Shown here: one piece after another, positions 7,275 through 63,308 of the stretch
How the letters are laid out: each line of letters begins with the position of its first letter
Position numbering within the stretch: the stretch's first letter is position 1
NCBI GenBank assembly: GCA_029821875.1
Contig: JALGXW010000001.1
Span: forward strand, 225,987-289,986
Reading direction: 5' to 3'
Source of the DNA: Candidatus Hebobacterum abditum
GTDB lineage: Bacteria > Armatimonadota > Hebobacteria > Hebobacterales > Hebobacteraceae
Length of the DNA: 64,000 nucleotides
Position numbers and translations under genes: made by a program
Notes under the pieces: generated by a model
The model's database searches: none
Seen by the model: only the letters and a program-made list of their open reading frames with translations
What the model was told of the DNA's origin: nothing

Positions 7275-7892
7275 ATGCCTGGCGATCACTACTTCAGCGA
7301 GAAGCCGGCCGCGAGAGGCGGTCGGCGGCTTATGGCGGTCGGGCTTCGCGGATTTGCACTGCGGCTCCTGACTGAGGCCGGGGTCTTCTCCCGGGAGCGA
7401 ATCGACCGCGGCACCCGTCTGCTGATCGACCACTTCGAGGTGTGTGCAACTGACCGTGTCCTCGACCTCGGCTGCGGCTATGGCGTGGTCGGCATCGTCG
7501 CCGCCCTCCTTGCGCCTGAGGGCAGCGCCACCCTTGTAGACATCAACCGCCGGGCTGTCGAACTCGCCCGGCAGAACGTCGCCCTGAACAACATCTCGAA
7601 CGCGGAGGTATTGTGCGGGGACGGCTTCGCGCCTGTGCGTGACCGCACCTTCGACCTCATCGCGCTGAACCCGCCAATCCGGGCCGGCCTCGCCGTTGTC
7701 CATCGACTCATAGCGGAATCCAGGGATCACCTCGCTCAGGCCGGTCGGTTCTATCTCGTCGGCCGAACCAAACAAGGAGTGGTTAGGCTGTCGCAGAAGA
7801 TGTCCGCAACATTTGGCGACGTATGCGAGGTCGCGAAGGGGGGCGGCTTCCGTCTTTACCGCGCCGAGAAGACGAACTCGGACTCGTGCTAG
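7275..7892 (+). CDS. SAM-dependent methyltransferase, RsmC/YbxB-like (MTS domain)
   Basis: A 205-residue class I methyltransferase. The N-terminus 'PGDHYFSEKP' and 'AGVFSRERIDRGTRLLI' match the small RsmC-like/YbxB proteins that methylate guanine in 16S rRNA. The SAM motif 'VLDLGCGYGVVGI' (about residues 70-82) and the catalytic 'NPPIR' motif, typical of exocyclic amino (N-) methylation, are both visible. The ATG at 7275 was chosen because family members start with a similar sequence. A GTG at 7200 in the same frame would add 25 residues, and neither start has a strong ribosome site. The rRNA target is inference from the family. Confidence 0.8.
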   Translation: MPGDHYFSEKPAARGGRRLMAVGLRGFALRLLTEAGVFSRERIDRGTRLLIDHFEVCATDRVLDLGCGYGVVGIVAALLAPEGSATLVDINRRAVELARQNVALNNISNAEVLCGDGFAPVRDRTFDLIALNPPIRAGLAVVHRLIAESRDHLAQAGRFYLVGRTKQGVVRLSQKMSATFGDVCEVAKGGGFRLYRAEKTNSDSC

Positions 7893-7903
7893 AAAGGACT
7901 CTG

Positions 7904-8965
7904 ATGCGGAGAGAATCCCTTGTCTTCCTCGAGGAACTCGTCAACGCACCGAGCCCCTCCGGCTTCGAACAGCCGGCCCAATCGGTGGTCCGGCAGTACG
8001 CCGAGCGGTTCGCGGACGAGGTGGTGACCGATGTCATGGGAAACGTCATTGCCGGCGTGAACCCTGGCGGCAAGCCGCGTGTGATGCTGGCCGGGCACTG
8101 CGACGAGATCGGCTTCATGGTCCGATACATCACAGACCAGGGCTTCCTCCACTTCTCGCCGATTGGCGGGGTTGACGCGCATCTCGTGCCAGGTCAGAAA
8201 GTACATGTTCACGGCGCCAAGGGGCATGTACTGGGCGTAGTGGGGAAGAAGGCCATCCACCTCATGCGGGCCGAGGAGCGAAGGAAGGTCCTGGACTTCC
8301 ACCAGCAGTGGGTCGACATCGGTGCCGTCGATCGGAAGGGCGCGGAGAAGCGGGTGAGTGTAGGCGACGCGATCACGTTCGCGACGGTCTTCGAGCGGCT
8401 GACCACCAACATCGCTGTGGCCCGCGGCTTCGACGACAAGATGGGCAGCTTCGTTGTGATGGAGGCGCTGCGCCTGATCCCGCGATCCAAGCTGAAGGCA
8501 GCCGTCTTCGCCGTTTCGACGGTGCAGGAGGAAGTCGGCCTTCGCGGCGCCACGACGAGCGCCTTCTCCGTCGATCCTCAGGTCGCTATCGCGGTCGACG
8601 TCACCCATGCGACAGACTACCCCGATGCCGACAAGACGCAGTTCGGAGAGACCAAGCTCGGCGGCGGACCCGTTCTTCACCGGGGGGCCAACATGAATCC
8701 GGTCGTCACAGCGCATCTGCTCGCCGCCTCGACGAAGGCCCGCCTCAAGCATCAGATGATCGGGGTCCCCGGCCGGTCTGGGACGGACGCGTGGGCCATG
8801 CAGCTTGTCAGAGGCGGGCTCGCCAGCTCCGTTGTGAGCGTGCCGCTGCGGTACATGCACACCCCCATCGAGGTGCTCGACATCCGCGACCTGCAGGCCG
8901 CGGCGAAGCTGCTTGCGACTTTCTGTGTCGATCTGAAGCCCGGGACCGACTTCGTCCCTAAGTGA
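7904..8965 (+). CDS. M42 family aminopeptidase (FrvX/glutamyl aminopeptidase-like)
   Basis: A 353-residue di-metal peptidase that trims N-terminal residues from peptides, normally as a large cytoplasmic tetrahedral oligomer. Metal ligands and catalytic residues of the family are visible: 'AGHCDEIGFM' (His), 'FDDKMGSF' (Asp), 'STVQEEVGLRGA' (Glu pair), 'AVDVTHATD' (Asp) and C-terminal 'MHTPIEVL' (His). The length is normal for M42. The start ATG has AGAAAGGA upstream. It lies 11 bp after the methyltransferase and 29 bp before tldD, so a peptide-turnover group is likely. Confidence 0.93.
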   Translation: MRRESLVFLEELVNAPSPSGFEQPAQSVVRQYAERFADEVVTDVMGNVIAGVNPGGKPRVMLAGHCDEIGFMVRYITDQGFLHFSPIGGVDAHLVPGQKVHVHGAKGHVLGVVGKKAIHLMRAEERRKVLDFHQQWVDIGAVDRKGAEKRVSVGDAITFATVFERLTTNIAVARGFDDKMGSFVVMEALRLIPRSKLKAAVFAVSTVQEEVGLRGATTSAFSVDPQVAIAVDVTHATDYPDADKTQFGETKLGGGPVLHRGANMNPVVTAHLLAASTKARLKHQMIGVPGRSGTDAWAMQLVRGGLASSVVSVPLRYMHTPIEVLDIRDLQAAAKLLATFCVDLKPGTDFVPK

Positions 8966-8994
8966 GCTTCAGCTAAAGGAAGGGAGGACCGCAC

Positions 8995-10446
8995 GTGAGA
9001 GATCTCGCCGCGCGCGCCGTCCAGCGCGCCCGGGCCGCGGGGGCAACCTACGCCGACGCCCGGGCGGTGGTCAGTCGCACCCAGGAGATCAACACGAAGA
9101 ACGGCGCGCCTGAAGGGCTCAGCGATTCCACAGATCAAGGCATTGGCATCCGCGTCATCGCCGAGGGCGCTTGGGGGTTCGCCAGCACTGCTTCGCCTCG
9201 AGAGGAGGCCGTCGACGAAGCGGCCGAGTTGGCGGTTCGCATCGCCCGAGCGAGCGCGACTCTGTCTGCGGGGGGTGTCGAGCTGGCCCCACAGGATCCC
9301 TGCCGGGCCGAGTGGTCGGCCGACTACGAATCCGATCCCTTCTCTGTGCCGCTGGAGAAGAAGCTCGCACTGCTGCTGGACGCGGACAAGCGGATGCGTG
9401 ATGTTCCCGGGGTACGAGTGGCAGCCGGCGAGATGACCTTCGTTCGGGAGGAGAAGTCGTTCGCCAGCAGCGAAGGCGCCGAGATCGTCCAGGCGCGCCT
9501 TCAGTCGGGCGCTGGCATCCACGCGATGGCGGAGGGGAACGGCGAGGTACAGCGGCGCTCCTATCCGGCCTCGCACGGGGGCGGCAATGCCAACCGAGGC
9601 TACGAGTTCGTCGAAACCATGGACCTACCCGCTAACGCGCGGCGCGTGGCACAGGAGGCAGTAGCGCTCCTCTCAGCAGATCCATGTCCGGCCAAGGTCA
9701 CGACGTTGATCCTCGACGGAGGGCAGCTTGCCCTGCAGGTGCACGAGTCGTGCGGGCATCCGACGGAGCTCGACCGCGTCTTCGGCACGGAGCGCAGCTT
9801 CGCCGGCACATCCTTCTTGACGACGGACAAGCTGAACGAACTGCGATATGGTTCCGACGTCGTGAACTTGTACGCCGACGCCACGATCCCCGGCGCCCTG
9901 GGGAGCTTCGGATACGATGATGAGGGCGTTCCGGCGGCGCGTGTTGACTTGGTAAAGGCTGGCACGTTCTCTGGCTATCTCAGCTCCCGGGAGACGGCCG
10001 CGCGCCTGGGCATCGAGAGCGGCGGCGCGATGCGTGCGAGCGGCTGGAGCCGTACCCCGATCATCCGCATGACCAACATCAACCTGGCGCCGGGCGACTC
10101 GAGTCTGGAGAAGATGATCCGGGAGACCGACGACGGAATCTACGCCGTCACGAACAAGAGCTGGAGCATCGACGACCTGCGACTCAACTTCCAGTTCGCC
10201 ACCGAGATCGGATGGGAGATCAGGAACGGCGAGTTGGGCCGGATGCTGCGCAACGTGACATATCAGGGCGTGACGCCGGACTTCTGGGGGGGCTGCGACG
10301 CGATCGCGGGCGAGGACGAATGGTACCCGTGGGGGCTGCTGAACTGCGGGAAGGGCGAGCCCATGCAGGTGATGTGGGTCGGCCACGGCGTAGCCCCGGC
10401 CCGCTTCCGGGAGGTCCGGGTCGGCGTGGGAGCCGATGAGGATTAG
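8995..10446 (+). CDS. tldD: TldD-family metalloprotease subunit
   Basis: A 483-residue TldD homologue. In E. coli TldD pairs with TldE/PmbA to form a zinc protease that degrades unfolded peptides and matures RiPPs such as microcin B17. The HExxxH zinc motif is present as 'HESCGH' (about residue 250), followed by the conserved 'SGGAMRASGWSRTPIIRMTN' region. The GTG start is preceded by AAGGAAGGGAGGA. The partner PmbA-like gene is at 11157, separated by one convergent gene. Confidence 0.92.
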   Translation: MRDLAARAVQRARAAGATYADARAVVSRTQEINTKNGAPEGLSDSTDQGIGIRVIAEGAWGFASTASPREEAVDEAAELAVRIARASATLSAGGVELAPQDPCRAEWSADYESDPFSVPLEKKLALLLDADKRMRDVPGVRVAAGEMTFVREEKSFASSEGAEIVQARLQSGAGIHAMAEGNGEVQRRSYPASHGGGNANRGYEFVETMDLPANARRVAQEAVALLSADPCPAKVTTLILDGGQLALQVHESCGHPTELDRVFGTERSFAGTSFLTTDKLNELRYGSDVVNLYADATIPGALGSFGYDDEGVPAARVDLVKAGTFSGYLSSRETAARLGIESGGAMRASGWSRTPIIRMTNINLAPGDSSLEKMIRETDDGIYAVTNKSWSIDDLRLNFQFATEIGWEIRNGELGRMLRNVTYQGVTPDFWGGCDAIAGEDEWYPWGLLNCGKGEPMQVMWVGHGVAPARFREVRVGVGADED

Positions 10447-58507: not shown

Positions 58508-58595
58508 GGAGAGATGGCCGAGCTGGTCGATGGCGCACGACTCGAAATCGTGTAGGCGCGCAAGCGTCTCGTGGGTTCGAATCCCACTCTCTCCG
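58508..58595 (+). tRNA. tRNA-Ser (anticodon CGA)
   Basis: An 88-nt class II tRNA. Acceptor GGAGAGA pairs with TCTCTCC, anticodon stem-loop ACGACT-CGA-AATCGT, a long variable arm (GGCGCGCAAGCGTC region), T-arm GTGGG-TTCGAAT-CCCAC, discriminator G, no encoded CCA. It is followed at once by recombinase remnants, making its 3' end a likely old integration site. Confidence 0.94.
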
Positions 58596-58602
58596 CTGAC
58601 GC

Positions 58603-58757: not shown

Positions 58758-59021
58758 ACGACGGAGGTCGCGCGTGAGTTGCACCACATGGGACTTCCTG
58801 ATGCGGCGCTTCCGCCCGAGGTGGCGGCCGCCGTCAGTCCTCACTCGCTGCGGCATACGTTCATCACGATTGCGCTGGAGGCCGGGGCGTCGCTTCGGCG
58901 AGTGCAGTATGCTGCGGGCCATGCTGACCCAAGGACCACGGAGAGATACGATCGGGCGCGGGAGAACCTCAGCGACAACGCGGCGGACTATGTGACCAGG
59001 GCACTGAACGGCCCTGATTGA
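58758..59021 (+). pseudogene. Tyrosine recombinase/integrase C-terminal remnant
   Basis: About 87 codons encoding only the catalytic end of a phage-type integrase: 'VSPHSLRHTFITIALEAGAS' (His-x-x-Arg), 'VQYAAGHADPRTTERY' (His and nucleophile Tyr). A stop codon (58755-58757) interrupts the frame just upstream, and no N-terminal or core-binding domain is present. It is therefore a truncated remnant. Located 160 bp after tRNA-Ser, as expected for a tRNA-targeting element. Confidence 0.82.
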
Positions 59022-59883
59022 CCGCCCGCTTCGCCCCGAGGGTGCTACGCCCCTACGGAGGCGGCGGCCCGCGTTCCAGCGTTGGGGAGCGTCGTCCTCC
59101 TCACGCGGTAGCTCCTCCTTGTGAACGGCCGAGGGCGACGGTCGCAGCGGCTGCGGGAGGCCGAAGCGAGGGCTGCGCGGTAGGGAGGTGTTCTTACTCT
59201 CGCGTTGGGACTCTGCAACCGTGCAGCTCTCCAGGTGGAGGGGGCAAGCAACCGTCAGGCGCCACGCGTGCCGATGGGGCAGGAGACAGGATCCACGGGC
59301 GCGCGCGACCCACGCAGTGATCTGGCGCGGTGTGCCCGGATCCACTCTCTGCCGATTCCCAAGCCACGCCCAATGTGAAGCTGCAGTGCCAGGGCTGCCT
59401 CCCTGACGAGAATGGAGGGGGACACGCGGAGGCTCCAGGATGTGCAGAGGGCGAGCCAAGGGAATGAGGGGAAGCTCTTGACGCGACGAAGCCTCGGTGG
59501 TAGTGTTCTCCGGAAGGTCAGGCCCCGTCGTTGACGCCGTGGTAGGGACTGGCACTAGTCAAGCGAGCCGACAACCCGTGTCGCAAGAGATTGGCTGCCT
59601 CGCGGCTCAACTCTCGGCGCGACATTCGCGGTCGCAGAGGGGGAACCTTGAGGGACAGCAGACACTCGGCTGTGGAGTTCCTCGGACCTGGTGGGATTGC
59701 GCTTGTTTCCCATGCAGGTGTCGTTTTCTCTCGCCATCCCCCTGCTGCGAGCCCTTCTCCTTGCTGTGCTCTATGACACTCTCCCGATGAACGATGATGG
59801 CGCGCCGGAGGTCTCCGCGGCGCCGGACAGCAGTTGCTCGGGCGTGGAGACAGGCCGTCCGGTGAGCGAATGGAGGAGCGATG
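59022..59883. other. Noncoding or decayed segment between integrase remnant and protease gene
   Basis: About 860 bp in which I see no convincing gene. Open frames on both strands are short or have unnatural composition. It is probably decayed mobile-element DNA plus the protease promoter region. No copy of the tRNA-Ser 3' end was found here by eye. Confidence 0.5.
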
Positions 59884-61956
59884 ATGAACAGCGATAAGGC
59901 GCACCCGCTCGGCCCCAAGTGCCGGAAGATCCACCCCAAGCTGCGGATGATAGCGAACGGCAGCGAGTTGGTCAACGTCGTACGCGCCGAACACTGCGCG
60001 GCGTTGTCAGCGGGGGCCTCGCCGTTGGTTGAGGAGGCGGAGGTGAGTCGCGGCGTGGGCGCCGCGCCTGTCGACCAAAGCCAGGTTGCAGAGGACCTCA
60101 CTGCACAGGATCTGGGGCCCATTCCAGAACGAGTGGTAGCCAACGTGTTCGTCTATACCGCGGAGACCGGCAAGGAGCCCGACGTACTGATGGAGACGGG
60201 GCGCAGGAGCAATCTCAGGACTGCCAAGGTGCCGTTATCTGGCCTAAGGGAGATGGTCGAACCCGACGAGATCAGCTTCGTCGAGTTGGGGGAGCCACTC
60301 TCGATGCCGACACCGGAGGTCACAGACACTTCTCCACAGGAGCCCAAATACGAGGAGCGCAGAGTTGCGTGTCCGGCCGTTCACAAAGATGGCGAAGGTG
60401 TGTTGGTGGGAATCATCGACTGCCAGGGCTTCGACTTCGCACACCCGGACTTCATCGGTGAGGATGGCAAGACGCGTTGGCTGGCGATCTGGGACCAAGG
60501 CGGTCGCTCGAGCGGCGGTTCCAGCAGTGGTTCCCGCGTTCCCTACGGCCGCGAGCTGACCAAGAAGCAAATGGACAGGGCAATAGATAAGGCAGGCGAT
60601 TATTATGTGCCCCCGCAGGACCTGGAGCCTCAATCGCAGATGGTCCCGGGCTCCCATGGCACGCACGTGGCCAGCATCGCCGCCGGCAAGAGCGGTGTGT
60701 GCCGGAAGGCGATGATCGCCGGCGTGCTCATATCCCTCAGCGATGACGATATGGCACGACGTAAATCCTTCTACGACTCTACGTGTCTCGCTCATGCCGT
60801 CGAGTATCTAATCGCGCTTGCCGAAGAACACAAGATGCCGGTCTCGATCAACATCAGCCTCGGAACCAACGGCCATGCCCATGATGGGAGCGCGGCCATC
60901 AGCCGGTGGATCGACTCCGCTCTATCAGTACCCGGCCGAAGTGTCTGCGTCTCGGCCGGCAATGCCGGACAGGAGGAGGCCGAGCACGACGGCGATATCG
61001 GCTGGATCATGGGCCGCATCCACACTGCCGGCCGCATCCCGTCCCGCAAACTGGTCTCAGACATCGACTGGCTTGTTGTGGGCAACGGCATCGCTGACAT
61101 CTCCGAGAACGAACTCGAGATCTGGTACGGCCCGCAGGACCGGTTCAGCGTCCTGGTGCGGCCACCGGGGGGCGATTGGATCGGTCCCGTCAAGCCTCGT
61201 GAGTGTCTCGAGAACCAGCAGCTCAAGGATAGGACCTTCCTGAGCGTGTACAACGAAGTCTACCATCCGGCCAACGGCTCCAACTACATCTCCGTATATT
61301 TGAGCCCCTTCCTACGCTCGCCAGGCGCGGTTGGCGTGCGCTCCGGAAGCTGGCTGGTGCGCTTGCAGGGCGACGACGTTCGAGCCGGCGAGTACCACGG
61401 ATGGATAGAACGCGACGACCCCCGACCCATAGGCCGGCTGGGCGACAGTCAGACCGCCTGGTCATTCCCTTCGTTCTTCTCGGAGCGATCAAATGTGGAC
61501 GACCATTCCGTCAACTCTCTTTGCTGTGGGCACAACGTTGTCTCGGTCGCGAACCTGGATGAGGCGGCCGAGAAGATCAACAAGACCAGCAGCCAGGGCC
61601 CCACGCGGGACGGCCGGTCCAAGCCGGATATCGCTGCTCCGGGTACCGACATAGTGGCGGCGAAGGGGTTTGCCGGCCCAAATGACCTGTGGGTAAGTAT
61701 GTCGGGTACGAGCATGGCGAGCCCACACGTGGCGGGTGTGATCGGGCTGATGCTCGCGGTTGAGCGGAAGCTGACGTCGGCACAGATCCTGGGGATACTA
61801 CGTCGCACCGGACAGCCGCTGCCGGGAGCAGACTACGCGTGGTGCAACGCCGCAGGCTTTGGCAGGATCGAACCAGAGGCGTGTCTGGAGGAGGCACGTG
61901 ACGTCAACAAGAGGCCCGACCTCACCAGAGATCTCGATTCGAACTCCACGAGCTAG
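59884..61956 (+). CDS. Intracellular S8 (subtilisin-like) serine peptidase with large insertion
   Basis: A 690-residue protease without signal peptide. An N-terminal region (about 1-150) of unknown fold precedes the subtilase domain. The catalytic triad is Asp179 in 'LVGIIDCQGFDFAHPDF', His261 in 'GSHGTHVASIAAG' and Ser610 in 'MSGTSMASPHVAGVIG'. About 350 residues separate His and Ser, far more than in subtilisin. The insert contains 'NELEIWYGPQDRFSVLVRPP' and further beta-rich sequence, reminiscent of the jelly-roll insertion of clostridial Csp proteases. ATG 59884 has GGAGGAG five bases upstream (ATG 59881 is also possible). Operon with the MBL-fold gene 26 bp downstream. Confidence 0.85.
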   Translation: MNSDKAHPLGPKCRKIHPKLRMIANGSELVNVVRAEHCAALSAGASPLVEEAEVSRGVGAAPVDQSQVAEDLTAQDLGPIPERVVANVFVYTAETGKEPDVLMETGRRSNLRTAKVPLSGLREMVEPDEISFVELGEPLSMPTPEVTDTSPQEPKYEERRVACPAVHKDGEGVLVGIIDCQGFDFAHPDFIGEDGKTRWLAIWDQGGRSSGGSSSGSRVPYGRELTKKQMDRAIDKAGDYYVPPQDLEPQSQMVPGSHGTHVASIAAGKSGVCRKAMIAGVLISLSDDDMARRKSFYDSTCLAHAVEYLIALAEEHKMPVSINISLGTNGHAHDGSAAISRWIDSALSVPGRSVCVSAGNAGQEEAEHDGDIGWIMGRIHTAGRIPSRKLVSDIDWLVVGNGIADISENELEIWYGPQDRFSVLVRPPGGDWIGPVKPRECLENQQLKDRTFLSVYNEVYHPANGSNYISVYLSPFLRSPGAVGVRSGSWLVRLQGDDVRAGEYHGWIERDDPRPIGRLGDSQTAWSFPSFFSERSNVDDHSVNSLCCGHNVVSVANLDEAAEKINKTSSQGPTRDGRSKPDIAAPGTDIVAAKGFAGPNDLWVSMSGTSMASPHVAGVIGLMLAVERKLTSAQILGILRRTGQPLPGADYAWCNAAGFGRIEPEACLEEARDVNKRPDLTRDLDSNSTS

Positions 61957-61982
61957 CATTACTGGAAGGGAGGACTGTGTCA

Positions 61983-63308
61983 ATGGAACTCACGGTTTTC
62001 CGCGCTGACAAGGGCGACTGTCTGCTGCTGACGGGAGCAGACGGGAGGCGCATGCTGATCGACGGCGGGATGCCCAACTCCTACCACGCGCATGTGGCTC
62101 CCGCGCTCAGCCAACTGCAGCAGCAAGACGAACCACTTGACCTGGTATGTGTGTCGCACATCGACGAAGACCACATCGCTGGCGTGCTGCAGATGTTCGA
62201 GGACGAAGTTGCCTGGCGCGTCTACCAATACCATCAGGACATCGGAGACGACGACTACGAACCACCCTCCGTCCCCCAGCCGCCGACGGTGAGTGGCATC
62301 TGGCACAACGGCTTCGGCGCCCAGGTGGGGGAGAATACCGGGCCGATCGAATCGATGCTCACATACCTCGGTCGCGTTCTATCCGGCGCCGACATTGAGA
62401 GACTCCGAACGGAAGGTATGTCCTTCCGAAACCTGGCGACGGGCGTCGCCCAGGGAGTCGAGCTGTCCCGGCGGATCGGCCCCGATCAACTTGGGATCCC
62501 GCTGAACTCGGGGTTCGACGACGGGTACGTGAAGGTGCAAGACGGCACACCTGATCCCACACTGGGCGGCATGTCGCTGACCATCATTGGTCCCACTGAA
62601 GACCTGCTGGAGAAGGTGCGGAAGAAGTGGGATAAGTGGGTGCGCGGCAATGATGATCGTATCCGAGAGATAGACGATGAAATGCGACGTGACGAGGAGC
62701 GTCTGATCTCGGGTGCCTCCGAGCCGTCAGCGCGACTCCATTCGGGGGCGCTGGCGTCGCCCGAGGTAGCGAGGCTGCTGCTCTCGGCGCTCACCCAGGC
62801 AGACGAGCTGGGACGCCGCAGCGAGGTGACAAAACCGAACTTGGCGTCGATCATGCTGCTGGTGGAGGAAGGTGACAAGAGCATACTGCTGACCGGTGAC
62901 GGTCACGCCGAGGACATCCTTGGGTGCCTGGATGCGCGCGAGAAGCTCACCGACGGACGCCTGCACGTCAATGTGTTTAAAGTGCCTCACCACGGATCAG
63001 AGCACAACCTCGACCCCGACTTCTGCAAGAAGGTGACGGCGGACCACTACATCTTCAGTGCCAACGGTGCTCACGAGAACCCCCATGAGGACATCGTTCA
63101 GGCAATAGTGGACGGTCGGCTCAACTCCGGAGTTCAAGGTACTTTCAAGCTCTGGTTCAACCACAATTCGACGACGCCGTCGACCACCATCCGCAGGAAT
63201 CACATGGAGGACATCGAGACCAAGGTGGCGGAGCTGGCACAGAGCAGCAACGACCGCATGGAGTACTTCTTCCTGGGCGCGGAAGACAGCTTTCCGTTGC
63301 CACTCTAG
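61983..63308 (+). CDS. ComEC-like metallo-beta-lactamase-fold hydrolase
   Basis: A 441-residue MBL-fold protein. 'MELTVFRADKGDCLLL' and 'MLIDGGMPNSYHAHV' open the fold; the metal motif is 'VCVSHIDEDHIAG' (HxDxDH variant). 'SILLTGDGHAEDILGCL' and 'FKVPHHGSEHNLDPDF' are the later metal-site strands, as in ComEC/Rec2-associated MBL domains. A charged helical insert lies at about 205-265. No signal peptide. GGAAGGGAGG precedes; ATG 61983 gives better spacing than GTG 61977. Such MBL proteins paired with proteases occur in bacterial conflict systems; the target here is unknown. Confidence 0.82.
   Translation: MELTVFRADKGDCLLLTGADGRRMLIDGGMPNSYHAHVAPALSQLQQQDEPLDLVCVSHIDEDHIAGVLQMFEDEVAWRVYQYHQDIGDDDYEPPSVPQPPTVSGIWHNGFGAQVGENTGPIESMLTYLGRVLSGADIERLRTEGMSFRNLATGVAQGVELSRRIGPDQLGIPLNSGFDDGYVKVQDGTPDPTLGGMSLTIIGPTEDLLEKVRKKWDKWVRGNDDRIREIDDEMRRDEERLISGASEPSARLHSGALASPEVARLLLSALTQADELGRRSEVTKPNLASIMLLVEEGDKSILLTGDGHAEDILGCLDAREKLTDGRLHVNVFKVPHHGSEHNLDPDFCKKVTADHYIFSANGAHENPHEDIVQAIVDGRLNSGVQGTFKLWFNHNSTTPSTTIRRNHMEDIETKVAELAQSSNDRMEYFFLGAEDSFPLPL

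Follow-up and report, generated by a model that had tools for sequence, protein, structure and literature searches.

A Csp-like subtilase paired with a putative gated MBL-fold nuclease: a probable two-gene effector in Candidatus Hebobacterum abditum

Why would a bacterium encode a cytoplasmic subtilase immediately ahead of an MBL-fold protein? The two genes lie near the end of a 64,000-nucleotide stretch of the Candidatus Hebobacterum abditum genome (assembly GCA_029821875.1, contig JALGXW010000001.1, positions 225,987 to 289,986 of the forward strand), which we refer to as the window and whose own numbering we use throughout. A preliminary description of this DNA proposed that the pair is a minimal two-component defence or toxin-like system in a tRNA-adjacent island, in which the protease either activates the hydrolase or is restrained by it. 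Our analysis argues for activation: we think it probable that the pair is a subtilase-nuclease effector, in which a triggered Csp-like S8 protease would cut loops of the MBL protein and the freed DNase would degrade DNA and arrest or kill the cell.

The protease gene (59881..61956, plus strand) encodes 691 amino acids and matches Pfam Peptidase_S8 (1e-27). Its catalytic triad, D180 (60418-60420), H259 (60655-60657) and S611 (61711-61713), and its oxyanion residue, N361 (60961-60963), are invariant in 81/81 S8 homologues. We found no N-terminal hydrophobic segment: the maximum 19-residue Kyte-Doolittle value in the first 60 amino acids is 0.71, and none of the 81 homologues exceeds 1.6. The protein is thus, as first described, an intact subtilase that lacks a signal peptide. 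The homologue alignment reveals a conserved N-terminal motif at residues 17-35 (IHPKLRMIANGSELVNVVR; 59929..59985, plus strand), in which L21, R22, N26, V31, N32 and R35 are each at least 85% conserved.

What kind of subtilase this could be is suggested by its predicted structure (pLDDT 89; a single-chain model, as is that of the MBL protein). The nearest solved structures found by Foldseek are CspA, CspC and CspB; the top 11 matches are all Csp chains, with E values of 1e-33 to 1e-36, and the next group follows at 1e-14. The subtilase domain of Csp proteases is interrupted by a jellyroll insertion, and CspB, without which the cortex hydrolase SleC (pro-SleC) is not cleaved efficiently, unusually retains its bound prodomain, leaving its site occluded (PMC3567191). 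In our model, the beta/alpha elements of a prodomain-like region (approximately residues 86-150; 60136..60330, plus strand) precede the catalytic domain, and the fold match extends over Csp structures that include the prodomain. A strand-only segment at approximately residues 375-545 (61003..61515, plus strand) appears to be an inserted all-beta domain and sits between N361 and S611, the position of the Csp jellyroll; the match to the NCBIfam CspBA model spans residues 410-625. Because the scores against CspBA (114 bits, cut-off 1250) and CspC (91 bits, cut-off 675) fall far under the cut-offs, we classify the protein as Csp-like rather than as a Csp orthologue. No autoprocessing site could be predicted in S8, where the conserved P145 leaves the position ambiguous, and no sensor domain was recognised.

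The second gene (61977..63308, plus strand; Pfam Lactamase_B) encodes 443 amino acids from GTG 61977, or 441 from the in-frame ATG 61983, which is the invariant first Met of its family. The 26-bp gap behind S8 that had been reported holds from this ATG, and the reported HxDxDH site is found as HIDEDH at residues 61-66 (62157..62174). The second metal half (62898..62993) consists of D308 (62898-62900) and HH338-339 (62988-62993). All of these ligands are conserved in 77-79 of 79 MBL homologues. The protein also matches the PADLOC MBL models LmuA, Avs1a and RTasMBL, as do 56/56 aligned family members; these three families are treated as one kind of gated pro-nuclease by Tuck et al. 2025 (PMC12799240).

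A fold search of the MBL model (mean pLDDT 86) returned a single match below E 1e-3, the ComEC nuclease domain 9ic4 (E 2.8e-11). The likeness to ComEC/Rec2 is limited to this nuclease domain, without the membrane part, and the score against TIGR00361 (ComEC/Rec2) is 35.7 bits, for a cut-off of 190. Given that MBL folds act on many substrates and that one weak fold match, 7dck, is a phosphodiesterase, one could imagine that the protein is another hydrolase of the lactonase or phosphodiesterase type, and that the pair serves in metabolism or signalling. We regard this as extremely unlikely, since the best and sole significant match is a nuclease domain and since the protein shares a clade with gated nucleases.

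In HamM and Avs1a, a partner trypsin switches on the DNase by cutting two insertions that otherwise block the active site, and caspase partners likewise activate gated nucleases (Tuck et al. 2025, PMC12799240). Two insertions are also present here and, in our model, they are positioned where HamM and Avs1a carry these protease-cut gating loops. The core of the model is mostly above pLDDT 90, and confidence drops to 49-74 in two segments, the putative gating insertions at residues 111-160 (62307..62456, plus strand; pLDDT 60-74) and 215-289 (62619..62843, plus strand; pLDDT 49-71). Both represent a length excess over ComEC-type proteins: the spacing between HxDxDH and the second metal Asp is 219-273 amino acids in the window's MBL family, compared to 92-97 in five of six ComEC-like proteins (190 in the sixth), 149-211 in trypsin-paired MBLs, 172-186 in caspase-paired ones and 169-201 in a second subtilase group. 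The extra residues fall within the two low-confidence segments, and these additional loops probably obstruct the active site. A search of these insertions for a conserved cut-site residue gave none above background. QLxIPLN (residues 171-177) is conserved, and we rejected it as a cleavage site because N177 is also kept in other nuclease groups; the motif looks structural.

A tree of 59 MBLs separates the gated family (trypsin-, caspase- and subtilase-paired) from ComEC-like proteins with support of 100/100, and by this phylogeny the window's MBL is a member of the gated family. Its own family is one clade (100/99). All subtilase-paired MBLs, with one unpaired long-branch row, fall in one branch (99/93) that excludes the trypsin- and caspase-paired MBLs, as labelled from neighbouring frames read by eye and from record annotation. 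This branch also contains a second group, S8-II (L102-L104, L127-L130 and L139; plasmids, Hyphomicrobiales), which likewise has a subtilase directly upstream of the MBL; however, the S8-II subtilases score only ~60 bits against the window's S8 family profile, and the second MBL insertion is shorter. Some S8-II loci have added genes: a patatin (L104), a DUF2235/Tle1-like phospholipase (L103, L224) or a cyclase-E2-TIR set (L102). Two further arrangements were seen among gated-family MBLs. At four Burkholderiales loci (L152, L154, L155 and L157), the MBL lies directly behind what appears by eye to be a CHAT/caspase-like protein, possibly a canu-type arrangement. On the Bradyrhizobium plasmid pBb38S5b (L105), the order is DUF2235, caspase, an unknown gene and a gated MBL, followed by a convergent S8 and an AAA ATPase, placing one nuclease between two protease classes.

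How firmly are the two genes tied to one another? With the S8 alignment as query, one genome from each of 84,980 species was scanned; this yielded 111 relatives, of which we examined the best 80. Among these, an MBL gene lies directly downstream on the same strand in 78 of 79 testable cases, usually with a 4-bp overlap at the junction; one locus (L032), whose contig ends 89 bp past S8, was left out of this count. The exception is Roseomonas sp. AR75 (L094), in which S8 is solitary and the whole genome lacks an MBL of the family; this particular protease therefore has some role without the MBL, or is a relic. The distances within S8 and within MBL are strongly correlated (Mantel r 0.895; the largest of 2000 permutations gave 0.239). 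The two proteins co-evolve, and their adjacency is near-obligate. The pair is therefore a real two-gene module whose homologues do co-occur as neighbours; rare adjacency, which the preliminary description named as a refutation of its proposal, is not what we see. The observation in that description that no immunity or sensor gene is visible extends beyond this genome: with genes called by simple ORF selection, no third gene is broadly shared across 86 loci. Where neighbours recur, this mostly reflects local synteny in seven Cupriavidus loci, all of which represent a single conserved chromosomal site of the pair and have identical flanking genes.

Two closely coupled genes with the protease in first place would also suit a different arrangement, in which the MBL is a constitutively active toxin and S8 an antitoxin-like regulator that degrades or restrains it. 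This seems very unlikely to us, given that the MBL carries pro-enzyme insertions and that proteases act as activators in those homologues that have been studied (PMC12799240). For the related suggestion of a toxin-like system in which the hydrolase restrains the protease, we found no evidence. Since the MBL is homologous to gated pro-nucleases (PMC12799240), the reading with the strongest support is that the protease activates the nuclease.

The module is widespread and sparse. The best 80 of the 111 S8 relatives cover at least nine phyla, and phylum labels, limited by record titles and bins, change 16 times on the S8 tree against a minimum of 8, an excess that is compatible with horizontal transfer. 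The 4.3-Mb assembly studied here (103 contigs) has a single copy of the pair, which is present in 1 of 14 genomes of the window's class and 1 of 291 of its phylum. Full-length matches to the MBL profile (E < 1e-100) were obtained in 2/249 genomes in the order of the Mesorhizobium seed, 1/300 in that of the Cupriavidus seed and 1/248 in that of the Flavivirga seed, seeds included; in the single new case, S8 is again directly upstream. A tblastn search of plasmids located both genes on 12 rhizobial plasmids, and in the seven that we opened they are adjacent (7/7), mostly overlapping by 4 bp. The pair is accessory, not core; conservation as fixed core genes, which would have spoken against the original proposal, is not what we see.

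The setting in the window matches the first account in several respects. Housekeeping surroundings are seen for ~52-58 kb of the window, and a tRNA-Ser(CGA) (58508..58596, plus strand; ARAGORN, Rfam RF00005, blastn against L217-L220) and an 80-residue C-terminal remnant of a tyrosine recombinase (58779..59021, fragment 58779-59018, plus strand; Pfam PF00589 Phage_integrase, E 1e-10) lie beside the pair. The metallophosphoesterase gene that precedes tRNA-Ser is homologous to four related genomes by blastn. In three of these (G007, G008 and G010), homology reaches the 3' end of tRNA-Ser and stops there (window ~58599); the contig of the fourth (G009) has the metallophosphoesterase homology and yields no tRNA. 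In G008, which belongs to the same genus, a ~331-residue tyrosine-recombinase frame, identified by eye from the sequence, follows the same tRNA-Ser (L217, 3641-4633). Because homology stops at the 3' end of the tRNA and because G008 has this frame behind it, the site is likely an integration hotspot that has been used recurrently. The GC content of the two genes is 0.61-0.62, compared to 0.64-0.66 in upstream genes. No attR copy of the tRNA-Ser end was found within ~30 kb downstream, and the recombinase fragment is at most a candidate for what brought in the pair.

If the pair serves in defence, one might look for defence genes around it. Within 6 kb on each side of 14 chromosomal loci, 119 genes match 26 PADLOC families (E ≤ 1e-10), compared to 133 genes and 89 families in 14 matched control regions of the same genomes, in a comparison that uses a small sample, counts families rather than proteins and overweights systems having many models. 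By this measure, there is no sign of defence-gene enrichment around the 14 loci. Pfam assigns the chromosomal neighbours mostly to ordinary metabolic genes. The seven plasmid neighbourhoods are mixed, some with Shedu-like, caspase, TIR, NERD or patatin genes and others with none; on pRle248d, the pair stands alone amid metabolic genes. The earlier idea that the pair resides in defence islands is therefore not borne out, and we dropped the argument built on it. Three rhizobial plasmids (L018, L019 and L020, ~7600-9900) have two recurrent genes upstream of the pair, encoding an unknown ~303-residue protein and an XendoU endoribonuclease-like protein that weakly matches a lamin-tail domain (tested on L018). 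Carriage by phages or prophages was rejected as well: the pair is absent from viral contigs, and phage records contain no full-length copy, only partial matches that are 24-37% identical and come mostly from faecal samples.

The metabolic neighbours, PADLOC matches no higher than in controls, the isolated pair on pRle248d and the viral contigs without relatives would all suit the same protease-activated nuclease in a non-phage role, carried as ordinary accessory DNA and serving in stress- or DNA-damage-triggered DNA turnover or cell death, or in the control of plasmids or foreign DNA. Yet the experimentally studied gated nucleases all act within antiphage systems (PMC12799240), and a patchy distribution with carriage on plasmids is what one typically sees for conflict genes; we consider a non-phage role unlikely. 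We infer a defence role from homology to experimentally proven systems rather than from context, with phage or other foreign DNA probably being the target.

In the mechanism that we favour, the MBL would be an inactive gated ComEC-type DNase in which two extra loops lie over the active site, and the Csp-like S8 would be held silent by its retained prodomain. Once an infection-related or foreign-DNA signal reaches S8, the protease would cut one or both loops, and the freed nuclease would degrade DNA, leading to cell arrest or death. Against this mechanism we count the solitary S8 of Roseomonas, the lack of a conserved cut-site residue in the MBL insertions, the lack of a defence-gene excess around the 14 chromosomal loci and the lack of a recognised sensor domain in the pair. 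Because no sensor gene accompanies the pair, S8 may sense the trigger itself. One could go further and speculate, as a tentative and rather doubtful extension, that the pair is a complete autonomous two-protein immune system, in which S8 is both sensor (through its N-terminal extension, prodomain or all-beta domain) and activator, release of the bound prodomain is the switch, as in germination, and no STAND, helicase, SMC or cyclase sensor is involved.

The pair is best read as a subtilase-activated pro-nuclease, a variant on the pairing of nuclease and protease described by Tuck et al. 2025 (PMC12799240). Csp-like subtilases would then be a third protease class paired with gated MBL nucleases, spread over nine or more phyla and unaccompanied by a sensor gene; a subtilase clade may already be drawn in fig. 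S2 of that paper. This raises a testable question, namely how a lone protease decides the moment of nuclease release. Through a common protease architecture, it would also connect a bacterial conflict pathway with the germination of clostridial spores, in which a proenzyme is woken by a Csp protease.

Several known systems come close, and none of the three that we tried as an assignment fits. AVAST type 1 was rejected because the Avs1b trypsin-STAND protein and Avs1c are absent beside the pair and NF041809 scores 146 bits for a cut-off of 420. Lamassu was rejected because the LmuB SMC-like ATPase and LmuC are absent from the flanking ORFs of the window and no third gene is broadly shared in the 86 loci. 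Canu was rejected because the upstream protease is a Peptidase_S8 rather than a caspase-family protein. The trypsin pairs (HamM/HamA of Hachiman, Avs1a/Avs1b of AVAST type 1, Lamassu and DRT variants; PMC12799240) have an MBL that is homologous, shares the metal motifs and has two insertions between them, and the protease is obligately linked in both cases. However, their trypsin is fused to a sensor or NTPase and encoded downstream, whereas here a stand-alone Csp-like subtilase is encoded upstream, without a STAND, SMC or helicase gene. Canu (KaeCanABC, PMC12799240) likewise places a stand-alone protease upstream of a nuclease of the same family, but its protease is a caspase, it has three genes rather than two, and its nuclease lies in a different tree branch than the window's MBL family. 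In the trypsin/S8-NucA operons (System 3 of Kaur et al. 2020, PMC7159879), peptidases are also coupled to an endonuclease and a proteolytic cascade has been proposed; NucA, however, is HNH-type, with a fold unrelated to MBL. On the protease side, the Csp germination proteases (CspA/B/C; PMC3567191; PDB 4i0w, 9pr8, 9pr9) share with the window's S8 the arrangement of prodomain, S8 domain and inserted all-beta domain. Identity is 18-22%, the hosts here are outside the spore-forming clostridia, and an MBL hydrolase takes the place of the cortex hydrolase SleC as partner. In clostridial spores, Csp proteases activate a proenzyme (PMC3567191), and by analogy the window's S8 would do the same.
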